The notes under the pieces: model-generated
The model's database searches: none
What the model was told of the DNA's origin: nothing
What the model saw: only the letters and a program-made list of their open reading frames with translations
In this document: piece by piece, positions 14,400 to 40,241 of the stretch
Numbering within the stretch: position 1 is the first letter of the stretch
Layout: every line of letters begins with the position of its first letter
Position numbers and translations under genes: made by a program
Assembly (NCBI RefSeq): GCF_900095865.1
Contig: NZ_FMIZ01000005.1
Span: 1-64,000, forward strand
Direction of reading: 5' to 3'
Source of the DNA: Massilioclostridium coli
GTDB taxonomy: Bacteria; Bacillota; Clostridia; Oscillospirales; Ruminococcaceae
Length of the DNA: 64,000 bases

Positions 14400-14671
14400 C
14401 AAAAAATCCCTTGCCCTAATCATAGGACAAGAGATCAAAACTCCTGCAGTGCCACCTAAATTCATTCATAATGAACGCACTTTTTCATGTACTACCATAC
14501 ATGCTCCACAATAACGGTTGGAATCCGTCGCCCCTATCTGCAAATACCATTGCTTTCAGTTTGCCCTCACAAGCCCATTCACCCAAATAATATTACTATG
14601 CTTCCAGCAACACATAGCTCTCTGAGAATATTGCTTTTAGGTTACTCTTCTTGTTCATTGGTTTTCGTTTT
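14400..14671 (-). promoter_or_regulatory. T-box riboswitch upstream of trpB2, probably Trp-responsive
   Basis: Read on the minus strand, the leader has the AGAGAG stem I element near 14620, a GCTGGAAGC segment, and the conserved T-box AGGTGGCACTGC (14446-14457). It ends in a terminator (TCTCTTGTCC paired with GGGCAAGGGA, then TTTTTT) at 14399-14433. T-boxes sense uncharged tRNA. A TGG triplet at 14577-14575 in the specifier region fits tryptophan, but I did not fold the RNA to prove it is the specifier codon. Confidence 0.9.
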
Positions 14672-28679: not shown

Positions 28680-28687
28680 AAAATTAT

Positions 28688-28882
28688 ACACCGTTAGGTG
28701 AGGTTACTCCACGGATATGGCTGTTGCCCGGAAATGTCGAGAGACGCCAACGGGTCAGCTGGCACTACCGAGTTAAGGTTTTGTCTAACACAGCTGATAG
28801 TGTTTTCTATCTATGCCCTGGAGAGCCAAAACTCGGCGAACAGTGGGTGTAGCTGTTTTGTCGTGTGCAAAACGGCTTTTTT
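28688..28882 (+). promoter_or_regulatory. Mg2+-sensing M-box (ykoK) riboswitch with terminator
   Basis: Conserved M-box blocks are visible: CCGTTAGGTGAGG at 28691, CTGTTGCCCGGAAATGTCGA near 28721, GAGACGCCAACGGGTCAGC at 28741. It ends with a terminator, AGCTGTTTTG (28851-28860) paired with CAAAACGGCT (28868-28877), then T6. High Mg2+ should fold the aptamer and end transcription before the CorA gene. Confidence 0.93.
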
Positions 28883-31006: not shown

Positions 31007-31035
31007 TTGATTTAAAAAAATGCTGGGTATATAAT
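31007..31035 (+). promoter_or_regulatory. Promoter of the tandem nitrilase gene
   Basis: TTGATT (31007-31012) and TATAAT (31030-31035) are separated by 17 bp. The predicted start at ~31042 lies only ~15 nt before a terminator hairpin. Confidence 0.7.
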
Positions 31036-31056
31036 AAAGCCAACGAAACAATTGAG

Positions 31057-31099
31057 AAAAGGCAAAGGCGCCATTACAGATGGTGTCTTTGCCTTTTTT
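31057..31099 (+). terminator. Terminator/attenuator in the nitrilase gene leader
   Basis: AAAAGGCAAAGGCGCCA (31057-31073) pairs with TGGTGTCTTTGCCTTTT (31081-31097) around a 7-nt loop and ends in a T run. Only ~33 bp separate it from the ATG, too little for another promoter plus ribosome site, so transcripts of the gene must read through it. Confidence 0.75.
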
Positions 31100-31132
31100 G
31101 TTTTGTTTAAAAAATGAAAGAGGAGTGTAGTT

Positions 31133-34045
31133 ATGAAATCAAAATTAAGCTCTCGTATTCTGGCAATCACCGTGGCTGTTACCCTTGCGGTTAGCTCATT
31201 TGTTACTACAACAGCTGCTACTAGCGGGCAAAGCGCTACAAAAACAATCCAGCCCGGGGAACTGGCGGTTGTCAATTTTTCTCCTGTGTGGGGAGACAAG
31301 GAGGCAAATAAGGAAAGCATACTTTCTTATATGAAACAGGCGGACGAGCAAGGAGTGCAAATGATTTTGTTCCCTGAGATGTGCTTGACTGGTTATGCTT
31401 CCTCTAGCGATCCAAATTCGGAAATTTATCAGATGGCAGTAAACGAGGCAGAAACAACAACCAGTCCGATTACCCAGGAAATTGCCTCCTATGCAGACCA
31501 ATATGATATGTGGGTATTTTTCGGCACATCTGAGCAAATATCGGGGGATAAGGAACACGCTTATAACTCTGAGTTTGCCTGTTCTCCGGATGGTACAGTA
31601 ACTGCCTACCAGAAAATAACCCCAGTAGAAGGAAGCTGGTGTACACCGGGCGATACTCCTGTTATGGTGAACACACAGTGGGGGAAAGTAGGCATTAGTA
31701 TCTGCTATGATACCTATGCTACACCGGAGTTGGAACGGTATTACGCTGCGCAAGGATGTAGTATTGTGTTAAACCCGACTGCTACCTCCCGTTCCTATAC
31801 CGATGTAGATGGTGATAATATTCGGGATGACCAGGGCTGGGAATGGTATTATAAAAACCGCCTGGAAAGCATAACATCTAGGGAAGGCATTCTGGTTGCC
31901 AGCGCAAACCTGGTAGGTGGGGATGGTCCAATCAAACAGGATGGGTCTTCTACGTACAATTTCCCAGGGGGCAGTGTTATTTTAGCAAGCCGGTTTAGCG
32001 GACCTGTATATTATGCGGGGACAACTGGGGATGATGATATCATTACTGCAACCGAAGGGATGCTCTCCAACTCCCAGGCGATTGATTTAAGTGGTATGCC
32101 AAGCTCTACCTGTAAAGTCAGCTCGGATTTCCATCCCGATTATTATGCAAAATGGTATAAAGAGCTTGCTGACAAACAGGCTTCCGGGGAGACATTACGG
32201 TATTCTTCTGATGTAACTGACGGTCCTATAGCTGCTGTGGCCAATGTGTCCGCAACATGGGGGGACAAGGATGCGAATATTCAGATGATGGTCGGCTATA
32301 TTGAACAAGCGGCACAAAATGATGTTGACATCCTCGTATTCCCTGAAACCGTGCTTACCGGCTATAGCTGTGAAGATCCGGAAACGGATGGCATTGAAGG
32401 CGACCAATATATGCAGGTCGCACTGGCGGAAACAATACCGGGCCCTTCTACCAACATCATTGCGGAATATGCCAAAAAGTATAATATGTATATCGTTTTT
32501 GGTATGCCGCAAAAGATGGATACCCCAATGTACGAAGCGTTAAAAGGTGAAATGGTGGAAAAAGTTTATAACTCAGCTGCGATTTGTAAACCGGATGGCA
32601 CAGTGGATTCCTATCAGAAAATGCATCGCGCAGGGGTAGAGTCTTATTGGTCTGTTTGTGGGGATACCCCTTATATGTTGGATACACAATGGGGTAAAAT
32701 TGGTGTTGATATCTGCCGGGATGGACATTTCTACCCAGAATTAGGCCGCTATTATGCTGCTATGGGATGCACAATGTTAATCCATCCAACCGCAACTACA
32801 GGAAACCCATGGTATCGTGAAACTAGGATTGGATCTTATACCGACCGTGATGGTATGGCGGCGATCACTTGTAACCTGTTAGGTCCAGATGGCATCTACA
32901 ATGAAGAAACCGGAAGCTATTCCGGTGGGGAATTTGCAAGCACCAGTATGATTGTTACCAAATACCATAACGAAAATGGACGCACTGGATTTGACCCGGA
33001 AACAGGTTCCGCTATCGATTTAAACGGGACTGGTTCCGAATCCGAAGGGTTTGATGAACGTGGCACCAGCCCAGAGGGGCTTGAAATTGCCAAGATGGAT
33101 CTTAGTGGATGTGGGTTTCAAATTACGAACTTCAATCCATTGTTGTTCGCCAAAATGTATGACCAATTGGCAGTAGAAAATATTCCTGGATACCAGTCGA
33201 TTTTTAGCACCAATACAACAGTACTAGATCAAGTGATCACTTATGCGGAAGCGCAACAAACATCTTCTTCTTTTGATGATGTCATTCCAATGGTGCAGCA
33301 GTCCTTCCATCAGGCTCTGGAAGCCGCTAAAACTGTCCAGACCGACCAGTTTGCAAGCCAGGAAGAAATTGACCAAGCATGGGTTACTTTGTTGGAAGAA
33401 ATCCATAAACTGGGATTTGTAAAAGGGGATAAAACGCTGTTAAAAACATTTTATACCTATGCGAACGGGTTGGATTTAGATCTTTATGCGGATGGGGATG
33501 CAAAACAGGCATTTTTAACCGCATTGGAAAACACGGCAGATGTTATTGCGGATGAAAATGCAATGGCGGATACGGTTGAACCCGCTTACGACGCCTTGAT
33601 TCAATCCACTATGGATTTACGGTATAAAGCGGATAAATCCATTCTTGAATCCCTAGTTCAGCAGGGGGATAGCATAGACGCAAATCTGTATACAGCTGAA
33701 AGCGTGGCAGTGCTAAATGCCAGCCTAGCAGAGGCCAAAGCTGTTTTAGAGGATACTACACTTTCGATTGATGACCAGTCCGCTGTAGACCAACAGGCAG
33801 TAGCGCTCCAAACCGTTCTTGATAGCCTGGTCTTAATCGGTCAGGACACTACCTCAACAATTTCTACCGATGGATCTACCGAAGAACAGTCTGGAGGGCA
33901 GAATTTATCCGAATCTTCCTCCGAAGCAGTTACACAAACTGGATACACTACTCCGCGTACAGGGGATAACACTGTGGCTGCGGTAGGTGCGGTACTGGCA
34001 GTGGCAGTAGCAACCGCTGTTTTGGCAGGGAAACGAAAAAAATAG
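31133..34045 (+). CDS. Exported tandem-nitrilase surface protein with FIVAR-like stalk
   Basis: 970 aa. The signal peptide (ILAITVAVTLAVSSFVTTTA) is followed by two complete carbon-nitrogen hydrolase (nitrilase superfamily) domains, roughly residues 40-335 and 360-690. Both keep the Glu-Lys-Cys triad: E82 (FPEMCLTGY), K161 (YQKITPVEG), C191 (SICYDTY) and E405 (FPETVLTGY), K496 (YQKMHRAG), C528 (DICRDGH). Residues ~700-910 are the helical module shared with the two rhamnosidases (LLEEIHKLGFVKGDK). The end TPRTGD, hydrophobic span, KRKK resembles a sorting signal. The superfamily hydrolyses nitriles, amides or carbamoyl groups; most members are cytosolic and single-domain. The substrate is unknown. 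Confidence 0.9.
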   Translation: MKSKLSSRILAITVAVTLAVSSFVTTTAATSGQSATKTIQPGELAVVNFSPVWGDKEANKESILSYMKQADEQGVQMILFPEMCLTGYASSSDPNSEIYQMAVNEAETTTSPITQEIASYADQYDMWVFFGTSEQISGDKEHAYNSEFACSPDGTVTAYQKITPVEGSWCTPGDTPVMVNTQWGKVGISICYDTYATPELERYYAAQGCSIVLNPTATSRSYTDVDGDNIRDDQGWEWYYKNRLESITSREGILVASANLVGGDGPIKQDGSSTYNFPGGSVILASRFSGPVYYAGTTGDDDIITATEGMLSNSQAIDLSGMPSSTCKVSSDFHPDYYAKWYKELADKQASGETLRYSSDVTDGPIAAVANVSATWGDKDANIQMMVGYIEQAAQNDVDILVFPETVLTGYSCEDPETDGIEGDQYMQVALAETIPGPSTNIIAEYAKKYNMYIVFGMPQKMDTPMYEALKGEMVEKVYNSAAICKPDGTVDSYQKMHRAGVESYWSVCGDTPYMLDTQWGKIGVDICRDGHFYPELGRYYAAMGCTMLIHPTATTGNPWYRETRIGSYTDRDGMAAITCNLLGPDGIYNEETGSYSGGEFASTSMIVTKYHNENGRTGFDPETGSAIDLNGTGSESEGFDERGTSPEGLEIAKMDLSGCGFQITNFNPLLFAKMYDQLAVENIPGYQSIFSTNTTVLDQVITYAEAQQTSSSFDDVIPMVQQSFHQALEAAKTVQTDQFASQEEIDQAWVTLLEEIHKLGFVKGDKTLLKTFYTYANGLDLDLYADGDAKQAFLTALENTADVIADENAMADTVEPAYDALIQSTMDLRYKADKSILESLVQQGDSIDANLYTAESVAVLNASLAEAKAVLEDTTLSIDDQSAVDQQAVALQTVLDSLVLIGQDTTSTISTDGSTEEQSGGQNLSESSSEAVTQTGYTTPRTGDNTVAAVGAVLAVAVATAVLAGKRKK

Positions 34046-34081
34046 CAATTATCTTTCCTTTATCTTGACCATATCATAGAA

Positions 34082-34116
34082 TAATGCCCATCCTATCTCA
34101 AATAGGATGGGCATTA
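34082..34116. terminator. Terminator between convergent genes
   Basis: AATGCCCATCCTAT pairs with ATAGGATGGGCATT around a 5-nt loop. It sits 37 bp after the nitrilase stop and 27 bp beyond the end of the minus-strand ABM gene. Confidence 0.8.
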
Positions 34117-34142
34117 TTCCAACTGCAAAGGGGGAAAAGTGG

Positions 34143-36851: not shown

Positions 36852-39380
36852 ATGAAAGAATATTACACCCGTTCCATTCCAGTTAGCCCTAGAATTGGAA
36901 AATTAAAAGAGGATCTGTTTGCTAAGATGCCTCAAATGGAAGCGGACCGTGCGGAGCTGCTCACCGAGTCTTACCAACAGACAGAAGGCTTACCAATTAT
37001 TACACGCCGCGCAAAAGCGTTCGCCCATATTTTAAAGCATATTCCAATTGTGATCCGTGATCATGAACTGATTGTTGGAAGCAATACGGTTGCACCACGT
37101 AGTAGCCAGGCTTTTCCGGAGTTCTCTTTCCAGTGGGTAGCGGATGAATTTGATACCATGGAAACCCGTGAAGCGGATCCATTTTATATTTCCGAAGATA
37201 CCAAACAACGTTTGGCAAAAGCGTTCCAGTATTGGGAAGGCAAAACAACCAGCGATTTGGCTACTTCTTATATGACTCCAGAAACATTGACAGCAATCGA
37301 GCATAATATTTTTACTCCAGGAAACTATTTCTACAATGGGGTAGGGCATGTTACCGTATGTTATGGTAAAATCCTGCAAGTTGGGTTTGAAGGGATTATA
37401 GAAGAAGCAAAAGCTGCTTTGGCAAAATGTAATCCAGGGGATGCGGATTTTGCAAGACGCAGCCACTTTTTAGAAGCAGTCATTGAAAGCTGTGAAGCAG
37501 TCATTGGTTATGCACACCGTTATTCTGAACTGGCGGCAGCACAGGCAGAAGAATGTACGGACCCAACCCGTAAAACAGAGCTGTTTAAAATTTCCCGCAA
37601 CTGTGCCCAGGTTCCAGGTAAACCTGCCCGCAATTTCTATGAAGCTTGCCAGTCCTTCTGGTTTGTACAGCAGTTGCTACAGTTGGAATCCAGCGGCCAC
37701 TCAATTTCCCCAGGCCGTTTTGACCAATATATGTACCCTTATTTTGAAAAGGATTTAAAAGAAGGTAAAATCACCCACGAATCCGCTCAGGAACTGTTGG
37801 ATTGTATCTGGATTAAATTAAATGACCTGAACAAAGCGAGAGATGCTGCCTCTGCAGAAGGGTTTGCTGGATATAGTTTGTTCCAGAACCTTTGTGTTGG
37901 CGGTCAGGATGAAAACGGTATGGACGTTACTAACGACCTGTCCTTTATGTGTGTGGAAGCTTCTATGCACGTATTTCTGCCACAGCCATCCTTGTCCTGC
38001 CGTGTTTGGAATGGTACCCCAAACGAATTGCTGATTAAATGTGCAGAACTGACCAGAACAGGGATTGGCTTACCAGCTTATTATAACGACGAAGTGATTA
38101 TTCCATCTCTGGAAAGCCGTGGTTTGACATTACAGGATGCCCGTGATTACAATATCATCGGTTGTGTAGAACCACAAAAATCTGGAAAAACTGAGGGATG
38201 GCATGATGCTGCGTTCTATAACATGCTCCGCCCTTTGGAACTGGTATTCTCCCGTGGTATGGATAACGGCGTAATGGTTGGGATTGATACTGGCGATGTT
38301 ACACAGATGAAAACATTTGACGAGTTCTACAATGCGTATAAAAAACAAACAGAATATTTAATCAGTTTGTTAGTAAACGCAGATAATGCAATTGATGTTG
38401 CCCATGCAGAACGCTGTCCATTACCATTCCTTTCCTCTATGATTGAGGATTGTATTGGACGAGGTAAGAGTGTGCAGGAAGGTGGAGCAATCTACAACTT
38501 TACCGGCCCGCAGGGCTTTGGGATTGCCAACATGACAGACGCACTTTGGGCAATCAAAACTTTGGTATTTGAACAGCATAAATTGACCATGGCAGAATAC
38601 AAACAAGCTTTGGATGACAACTTTGGACATGGTATGTCGGATGAAAAAGCAACCCAGATTACCGCTGAAATTGTAAAACAGTTAGCTGCTGTTGGAAAAA
38701 ATGTTAGCAATGAACAGATTGCTGCTGTTTATAACCAGGTAAAATCCCAAGCTTGTTCCCCAGAAAAACAAGCAAAATACAACCAGTTATTAAACTGGAT
38801 TGATGAATTACCGAAGTTCGGTAACGATATTGAAGAAGTAGACCGGTTTGCGCGTGATGTTGCTTACACTTATACAAAACCATTAGAGCAGTACCATAAC
38901 CCACGCGGCGGTATTTTCCAAGCTGGTTTGTATCCAGTATCTGCTAACGTTCCTTTAGGTGCGCAAACAGGTGCTACACCGGATGGCCGTTTAGCTGGAA
39001 CTCCAGTTGCAGACGGTGTATCCCCAGTATCCGGAAAAGATGTACATGGACCAACGGCTGCTTGTAACTCGGTATCCCGTTTGGATCACTTTATTGCATC
39101 CAACGGAACACTGTTTAACCAGAAGTTCCATCCATCTGCATTGTCTGGTACACAGGGATTGGCGAACTTTGCGTCTTTAATCCGTGCTTACTTTGACCAA
39201 AAAGGTATGCACGTACAGTTTAATGTTGTCAGCAGGGAAACTTTGATAGACGCCCAGAAACATCCAGAGAATTATAAAGGTCTGGTCGTACGTGTAGCAG
39301 GATACAGTGCGTTGTTTACCACATTATCCAAGTCCTTGCAGGATGATATTATTAAACGTACAGAACACGTTTTCCAATAA
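36852..39380 (+). CDS. Glycyl radical enzyme, glycerol/propanediol dehydratase-like
   Basis: 842 aa. The active-site cysteine is C438 in GCVEP, with E440 and D452 in KTEGWHD. GHS (residues ~286-288) and GVGHV near residue 165 match residues used by B12-independent glycerol and 1,2-propanediol dehydratases. The glycyl radical site is G817 in VRVAGYSA. Expected reaction: dehydration of a vicinal diol to an aldehyde; trans-4-hydroxyproline dehydratase and choline lyase are family alternatives. AAGGAG precedes ATG 36852. Its activase follows 66 bp downstream. No microcompartment shell gene or aldehyde dehydrogenase is adjacent. Confidence 0.9.
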   Translation: MKEYYTRSIPVSPRIGKLKEDLFAKMPQMEADRAELLTESYQQTEGLPIITRRAKAFAHILKHIPIVIRDHELIVGSNTVAPRSSQAFPEFSFQWVADEFDTMETREADPFYISEDTKQRLAKAFQYWEGKTTSDLATSYMTPETLTAIEHNIFTPGNYFYNGVGHVTVCYGKILQVGFEGIIEEAKAALAKCNPGDADFARRSHFLEAVIESCEAVIGYAHRYSELAAAQAEECTDPTRKTELFKISRNCAQVPGKPARNFYEACQSFWFVQQLLQLESSGHSISPGRFDQYMYPYFEKDLKEGKITHESAQELLDCIWIKLNDLNKARDAASAEGFAGYSLFQNLCVGGQDENGMDVTNDLSFMCVEASMHVFLPQPSLSCRVWNGTPNELLIKCAELTRTGIGLPAYYNDEVIIPSLESRGLTLQDARDYNIIGCVEPQKSGKTEGWHDAAFYNMLRPLELVFSRGMDNGVMVGIDTGDVTQMKTFDEFYNAYKKQTEYLISLLVNADNAIDVAHAERCPLPFLSSMIEDCIGRGKSVQEGGAIYNFTGPQGFGIANMTDALWAIKTLVFEQHKLTMAEYKQALDDNFGHGMSDEKATQITAEIVKQLAAVGKNVSNEQIAAVYNQVKSQACSPEKQAKYNQLLNWIDELPKFGNDIEEVDRFARDVAYTYTKPLEQYHNPRGGIFQAGLYPVSANVPLGAQTGATPDGRLAGTPVADGVSPVSGKDVHGPTAACNSVSRLDHFIASNGTLFNQKFHPSALSGTQGLANFASLIRAYFDQKGMHVQFNVVSRETLIDAQKHPENYKGLVVRVAGYSALFTTLSKSLQDDIIKRTEHVFQ

Positions 39381-39446
39381 AATAGAAAACAAAAGGTAGG
39401 CCCGTATTTGATCAGACAACCGGGCAGTTTGCCTGTTGGAGGAAAT

Positions 39447-40241
39447 ATGGATCACAGTTATTTAGAAGAAACAGGGCGTATTTTTGACGTACAGCGGTTC
39501 TCTGTACATGATGGCCCGGGTATCCGTACCATTATCTTTTTAAAGGGTTGCCCATTGCGCTGCAAATGGTGTTGCAATCCAGAATCTCAGCAATATGAGA
39601 TTCAAAAGATGGTGGTAAATGGTGTACCAAAGACAATGGGGCGGGACGTTACCGTTCAAGAAGTATTAAATGAAGTTCGTAAAGACTTAACTTATTATTG
39701 GCGTTCCGGCGGAGGGGTAACCCTTTCTGGTGGAGAATGCCTGTTCCAATCAGATTTTGCTGCGGCAATCCTGCGTGCTTGCAAAGAACAATGTATTAAC
39801 ACTGCAATTGAAACAACGGGTTTTGCGCCATTTAGTAATATCCAAAAGCTGCTGCCCTGGCTGGATGTGGTTTTAATGGACATCAAACATGTGGATGATG
39901 AAAAACACAAGGCATTTACTGGACAATCCAATCGGCTGATTTTGGAAAACGCAAAAAAAATTGCGGAATCAGGTGCTAATTTGGTGATTCGTGTTCCAGT
40001 TGTTCCGGAGTTCAACCACACCCCTCGTGAGATTTATCAAATTGCAAAATTTGCGGAGCAGCTGCCTGGAGTAAAACGAATCCACCTACTTCCTTACCAT
40101 CGCTTAGGGGAAGATAAATATGCAGGACTTGGACGTAAGTATGAGTTAAGCAATATTGATCCTCAGAACAATGAGGCGTTAGAAGAACTTTTAAATACTG
40201 TAAGAAATAATACTGCTTTAGAGTGCCAGATTGGCGGCTAA
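39447..40241 (+). CDS. Glycyl radical enzyme activase (radical SAM)
   Basis: 264 aa from ATG 39447, chosen for GGAGG just upstream; a TTG at 39408 is the alternative. The radical SAM C-x3-C-x2-C motif is CPLRCKWC, following VHDGPGIRTIIFLKGC, the typical N-terminus of these activases. It generates the glycyl radical on the partner enzyme using SAM and a 4Fe-4S cluster. The ferredoxin-like insert with two extra clusters, common in diol-dehydratase activases, is absent: after the SAM motif the protein passes directly to GGGVTLSGGE. It is cotranscribed with the enzyme gene and followed by a terminator. Confidence 0.92.
   Translation: MDHSYLEETGRIFDVQRFSVHDGPGIRTIIFLKGCPLRCKWCCNPESQQYEIQKMVVNGVPKTMGRDVTVQEVLNEVRKDLTYYWRSGGGVTLSGGECLFQSDFAAAILRACKEQCINTAIETTGFAPFSNIQKLLPWLDVVLMDIKHVDDEKHKAFTGQSNRLILENAKKIAESGANLVIRVPVVPEFNHTPREIYQIAKFAEQLPGVKRIHLLPYHRLGEDKYAGLGRKYELSNIDPQNNEALEELLNTVRNNTALECQIGG

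Follow-up and report, generated by a model that had tools for sequence, protein, structure and literature searches.

Our analysis of a 64,000-nucleotide stretch of Massilioclostridium coli DNA (the window) suggests that one of its genes encodes a wall-anchored, ammonia-releasing amidase whose expression nitrogen limitation would turn on by way of ANTAR-type antitermination, a reading that we consider moderately probable as a whole. Its parts differ in strength. The sequence supports a pair of intact nitrilase-fold domains in a protein with the look of export and wall anchoring, and that this protein works as an extracellular amidase is likely. Because its leader resembles that of ammonia-assimilation genes, the enzyme would probably take nitrogen from extracellular amides under nitrogen scarcity, which makes nitrogen scavenging the probable role. 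If this is correct, some gut bacteria digest amides at the cell surface for nitrogen, by means of an enzyme family that is regarded as mostly intracellular, and a surface amidase becomes linked, in testable form, to the control of glutamine synthetase. The features of the gene and its surroundings are collected in Table 1.

Table 1. Features of the tandem nitrilase gene and its flanks (positions in the window)
Feature	Position	Strand	Basis
Promoter-like TTGATT-17-TATAAT	31007..31035	+	sequence; same order of promoter and hairpin in relatives
Terminator-like hairpin of 20 pairs followed by a T run, placed between promoter and ATG	31055..31099	+	fold
Mini-hairpin GGC-AAAGGC-GCC, ANTAR P2-like, loop A1, A2, G4	31061..31072	+	sequence/fold
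Ribosome-binding site GAGGAG	31120..31125	+	by eye
Tandem nitrilase-fold protein, 970 aa, probably exported	31133..34045	+	ORF with ATG start
Signal-peptide-like N-terminus	31133..31219	+	by eye
Domain 1, triad E82/K161/C191, extra E166	31256..32182	+	Pfam and alignment
Domain 2, triad E405/K496/C528, extra E503	32219..33202	+	Pfam, alignment, AlphaFold2 fold
Helical FIVAR stalk, 2 stretches	33224..33832	+	Pfam
Sorting-signal-like tail: TPRTGD, hydrophobic stretch, GKRKK	33950..34042	+	sequence; scores below anchor-model cut-offs
18-bp perfect inverted repeat downstream of gene	34079..34119		sequence

The 970-aa product matches the carbon-nitrogen hydrolase family PF00795 (CN_hydrolase) in two stretches, with a whole-protein E of 4.1e-52 and 177.5 bits and with 88.6 and 87.9 bits for the two places taken singly, against a Pfam cut-off of 23.2. 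Each domain combines a PF00795 score above the cut-off with the Glu-Lys-Cys triad, as is required of a member of the nitrilase superfamily. The preliminary description had claimed two intact nitrilase domains with complete triads, and this stands: all six residues that it named are present, and the Pfam domain search that it proposed returned CN_hydrolase twice, not once. Across eight aligned tandem proteins E82, K161, E405, K496 and C528 are invariant, and both domains of the window protein have an additional glutamate between Lys and Cys. C191 is gone in three of the eight (L015-L017), whose domain 1 should therefore be dead. None of the NCBIfam models matched (nitrilase, AguB, AmiE, AmiF and others) gave the protein a score above its cut-off, the best being 109.7 against 500 and 107.5 against 410.25.

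Loss of an active site is also found outside the exported forms. The proteobacterial tandem proteins L050 (583 aa) and L052 (577 aa), cytosolic ‘nitrilase-related carbon-nitrogen hydrolases’, share with the window protein the presence of two PF00795 stretches, but differ from it in having no signal peptide by eye, a domain 2 without its Cys and domains that fall on separate branches of the tree; plasmid-borne proteins of this type lie in urea or amide loci of their own, adjoining urtE, or an AmiR-type ANTAR gene with acetamidase/formamidase genes. Because of the Cys lost from domain 1 of L015-L017 and from domain 2 of L050 and L052, some tandem forms appear to retain a single active site, whereas the window protein appears to retain both. 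These same losses lend some credit to the possible, though doubtful, alternative that catalysis on the physiological substrate falls to one domain alone, with the other acting in substrate binding or as a dimer partner; against it, both triads are complete not only in the window protein but also in L019, L020, L021 and L008 according to the alignment and, as judged by eye, in L026 and L059.

A tree of 41 domain rows suggests one old duplication behind the tandem form, as domain-1 copies cluster together (80/87) and so do domain-2 copies (92/92), neither branch being at the program’s starred level. A third group next to these two (93/98) consists of leaderless single-domain relatives. The two domains of L026 pair together (98/96), beside domain 1 of the window protein (99/97), as if they had been renewed separately.

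For structure prediction domain 2 was chosen, and an alternative tandem alignment for a second fold was dropped because most of the alignment of the single domains in it was to domain 1. The AlphaFold2 model of domain 2, from 17 rows, reached a pLDDT of 77.8 and a pTM of 0.81; a 4-row model of the whole protein was of poor quality (pLDDT 54.8) and was kept out of the fold search. The best PDB matches returned by Foldseek for domain 2 were a P. horikoshii amidase, nitrilases, the B. cereus formamidase and plant N-carbamoylputrescine amidase, with query-normalised TM values of 0.56-0.66 among the matches listed. The fold and the E-K-C triad are thus shared with the amidases of the nitrilase superfamily (AmiE/AmiF, P. 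horikoshii amidase, N-carbamoylputrescine amidase), from which the window protein differs in being tandem, stalked, and probably exported and anchored. Its substrates would be small primary amides or related compounds.

Export and sorting-based anchoring are predicted from both ends of the protein. By eye, the N-terminus starts with basic residues and continues into a hydrophobic, Ala-rich part, and the TPRTGD tail scores 10.9 against a cut-off of 20 with the Pfam LPXTG anchor model and 14 against 23.5 with the NCBIfam NPXTG model; the genome has three sortase matches above the cut-off. Between the catalytic domains and the tail, FIVAR was matched in two stretches (31.5 against 29.2, Pfam). 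The stalk had been described as rhamnosidase-type, and the two adjacent GH78 rhamnosidases, with tails of AAKTGD type, do have FIVAR repeats too, but the stalk is not special to them, with at least 150 FIVAR stretches scored among at least 277 candidates in the genome. Most of these stretches lie inside open frames longer than 1000 aa (the longest of 2270), and the stalked proteins of this genome form a very large set.

The leader of the gene is the second part of our argument. The 3' strand of its mini-hairpin belongs to the 5' arm of the terminator, so that the two structures overlap. A leader terminator was found at most 150 nt before the start in 7 of 10 tandem loci, compared with 11 of 164 background ORFs, called mechanically and scored by the same script; the three tandem loci with none within 150 nt are L032, L026 and L059, and L026 has a similar hairpin, seen by eye, about 170 nt upstream. 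The sequences of the terminator stems vary between species, and a hairpin with an A1/G4 hexaloop stands at the base of the terminator in all seven tandem leaders, against 9 of 83 control terminators, while every other combination of first and fourth loop letters occurs in at most two of the seven. Several of the nine control terminators follow promoter-like sites of nitrogen genes (AsnA, class-II GATase, UrtA-like). A search of the leader with Rfam gave nothing above the gathering score. A reading of the hairpin as part of a leader peptide was dropped, as no consistent start codon could be seen by eye.

According to one study (PMC3369931), an ANTAR target consists of a pair of mini-hairpins whose hexaloops carry A1 and G4 and whose closing pairs are essential, and its second hairpin sits at the terminator’s 5' base; the study reports that single-hairpin RNA was bound more weakly than two-hairpin targets. 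Another (PMC8164766) likewise speaks of dual stem-loops. The window leader has what is asked of the second hairpin, P2, namely an A1/G4 hexaloop mini-hairpin whose 3' strand overlaps an intrinsic terminator, and its genome also encodes the ANTAR protein that such a target calls for. However, an upstream P1 hairpin was found at none of 26 sites, the window’s included (the longer leader of L020 lies outside the 26), and only some 2-20 nt of RNA would precede the P2-like hairpin at these sites, given a transcription start 7 nt past the -10 box. On its sequence the element is ANTAR-like in P2 and fails the two-hairpin test, and because of this failure we do not class it among the standard ANTAR targets. 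With the AmiR, NasR and EutV leaders, as described in PMC3369931, it shares the A1/G4 hexaloop mini-hairpin overlapping a terminator and the association with nitrogen genes; it differs from them in having one hairpin, near the predicted 5' end of the transcript. This single-hairpin leader may perhaps be more novel than the protein that follows it. If our reading holds, ANTAR antitermination can work with one hairpin, and search models built on two would miss such sites.

A candidate reader is encoded in the same genome, where the one ANTAR match above the Pfam cut-off is a protein encoded directly after glnA, of the kind named NitR in clostridia. The same arrangement is found in the five other leader-bearing family genomes whose ANTAR loci were read (G013, G232, G076, G115 and G165); in G288 and G389 no glnA was seen next to the ANTAR gene. 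ANTAR genes are common in this set, being present in 14 of the 17 genomes searched, and the sole tandem-bearing genome searched that lacks one, G053, has its tandem gene without a leader. The receiver-like half of the glnA-linked protein has VNTPL at the place where one would expect a phosphorylated Asp, and because of this replacement its signal may come from a partner protein, as in the case of AmiR. The binding of this protein to the leader hairpin is putative, and so is the nitrogen signal. The same leader within a nitrogen regulon could instead be read by another RNA-binding factor or act through an intrinsic timing mechanism, for which the absence of P1 from 26 of 26 sites and the short RNA ahead of the hairpin would speak; we regard this as unlikely, because the A1/G4 loop, the RC..GY closing pairs and the terminator overlap all fit P2 of ANTAR targets, because the ANTAR gene directly follows glnA, and because G053 lacks gene and leader together.

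A strict pattern (TTGACA, TATAMT, then RCAANGRNGY) was run over 15 genomes picked for holding relatives of the protein. It gave 36 matches in 14 of the 15 genomes and none for the reversed pattern, about 10 of the 36 having been known before the pattern was made; the nitrilase promoter itself, with TTGATT, falls outside it. Among 28 distinct flanked sites, 23 have a stem of at least three pairs, and 21 of these 23 have a T run 18-90 nt further on, while a T run was found at 544 of 3000 random positions. The remaining five (L128, L141, L143, L149 and L153) have neither stem nor T run and precede other genes. Pairs that the pattern does not impose were more frequent than in shuffles (pair 3 in 24 of 28 sites against 17.7, pair 4 in 21 against 10.8, pair 5 in 17 against 10.9), and the observed counts were reached by 2, 0 and 9 of 2000 shuffles, respectively. 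The genes behind strict-pattern sites, identified by Pfam from one or two examples each, include GSIII, GSI, class-II GATase, AsnA, a PF01425 amidase, a circularly permuted ATP-grasp protein, class-I GATase, lactate/malate dehydrogenase and tandem nitrilases, and further GSIII and GATase genes were named by eye. The 300 nt before glnA in L104-L108 contain no such leader; in L107 it precedes a GATase gene upstream of glnA. One of the genes with this leader (L145, in G232) encodes a PF01425 amidase-signature protein with a signal-peptide-like N-terminus, a second candidate surface amidase.

In the window’s own genome a relaxed pattern gave 16 matches against 14 for the reversed control, which is not above control, and the three sites retained there therefore rest on hairpin and terminator. 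Only the nitrilase gene, glnA (GSI) and GSIII have a hairpin of at least three pairs with a terminator; for glnA and GSIII the terminators were seen in RNA folds, both having been missed by the site-scanning script. The script did report a weak hairpin (-9.6) at L127, where the mini-hairpin has two pairs only. GSIII and glnA are divergent (G000 C3, about 83471-85902; L103 and L136); both are preceded by an attenuator-like leader with one hairpin, and the ANTAR gene follows glnA. The GSIII/glnA/ANTAR locus is a possible nitrogen regulon.

The ANTAR-based reading can be put together as follows. When nitrogen is plentiful, the terminator would halt RNA polymerase right after the start of transcription. 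Under nitrogen limitation, the ANTAR protein encoded after glnA would hold the hairpin with the AANGRN loop, and since the terminator needs the 3' strand of that hairpin, a held hairpin would lead to read-through. The tandem enzyme would then be exported by the Sec pathway and anchored at the cell surface by sortase, where both nitrilase-fold domains, through their Cys nucleophile, Lys and Glu, would hydrolyse amides and release ammonia, and the two glutamine synthetases, co-induced, would capture it. The wider proposition, that gut clostridia control a nitrogen regulon by means of a glnA-linked ANTAR protein and a minimal ANTAR-type attenuator of one hairpin, placed at the transcript start, and have enlisted wall-anchored tandem nitrilases to harvest ammonia, seems to us evenly balanced.

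Gene neighbourhoods bear on the role in part. Two single-domain relatives, L038 and L042, have ABC transporter genes nearby, together with genes for UrtA-like binding proteins (359-379 bits, against a UrtA cut-off of 492.75), and the L038 locus also holds an aliphatic amidase (628.6 against an NCBIfam cut-off of 427). The tandem genes appear to stand alone, and their neighbours (CorA and, by eye, FeoB, acetate kinase, EF-Ts and others) are functionally uninformative. A leaderless relative, L039, adjoins a gene for a SIS-domain protein. The nitrilase superfamily also includes Lnt and glutaminase-type members, and the likely surface location, together with an Lnt score, albeit one below the cut-off, would accommodate an enzyme that remodels the cell’s own surface (amidated peptidoglycan or lipids, for instance) in place of feeding on nitrogen; we find this improbable, given that no cell-wall gene was recognised among the neighbours examined, that the leader is common to nitrogen genes and that the protein is present only sporadically.

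Exported nitrilase-fold enzymes of animals are of the vanin/biotinidase kind, which is marked by a C-terminal domain of its own. Vanin-like cleavage of pantetheine had been put forward in the preliminary description, and an ectoenzyme acting on pantetheine or another host secondary amide would suit the surface location and the general likeness to these extracellular enzymes, but we give it the least credence of all: the vanin/biotinidase C-terminal family is absent from the Pfam matches at E up to 1, no vanin or biotinidase is named among 27 PDB sequence matches or the 50 Foldseek matches listed for domain 2 (the nearest being amidases, nitrilases, formamidases and carbamoylputrescine amidases), and the leader is of the nitrogen type.

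Genome counts of relatives rest on a protein query with the tandem region; an alignment query scored no more than two candidates in the genomes listed. In the family, 13 of 297 genomes match it at E<=1e-30; seven of the 13, M. coli included, have tandem forms with signal-like N-termini and the other six have single-domain forms, so that the exported tandem form is rare (7/297). At the level of the order 5 of 394 genomes match, namely M. coli itself, G389 (tandem) and three with single-domain relatives, and in a sample of the phylum the only match in 398 genomes is M. coli. That such a protein was not previously obvious in this lineage, as had been remarked, is a fair statement for a form found sporadically in a handful of genomes. 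The copy in C. methylpentosum DSM 5476, of the same genus as the window’s organism, is 87% identical, and directly after its nitrilase gene lies a CRISPR-like array (L031, 12231-12939; 11 copies, 66-68 nt spacing). In L026, from G389 of another family, the C-terminus at the contig edge resembles by eye the start of an S-layer-homology domain (with no Pfam match), which suggests a different surface anchor.

The same tandem protein is also carried by two IMG/VR contigs, L059 and L060, one copy being intact and the other frameshifted. These are related high-GC contigs (62-64%) in which two different prophage lysis ends adjoin the tandem nitrilase. Because no phage record matched the flank of L059, we only infer a host for the two contigs, a Bifidobacterium-like one. 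A phage collection contained no relative, and closer scans of the viral_contigs set with the window protein found none.

Elsewhere in the window, an M-box riboswitch precedes a CorA gene (28683-28851) and a T-box leader precedes a gene for a PLP-dependent enzyme (14420-14667). Downstream of the nitrilase gene lie genes for a glycyl-radical enzyme and its radical-SAM activase (36852-40241), the former possibly a propanediol dehydratase of rhamnose use.
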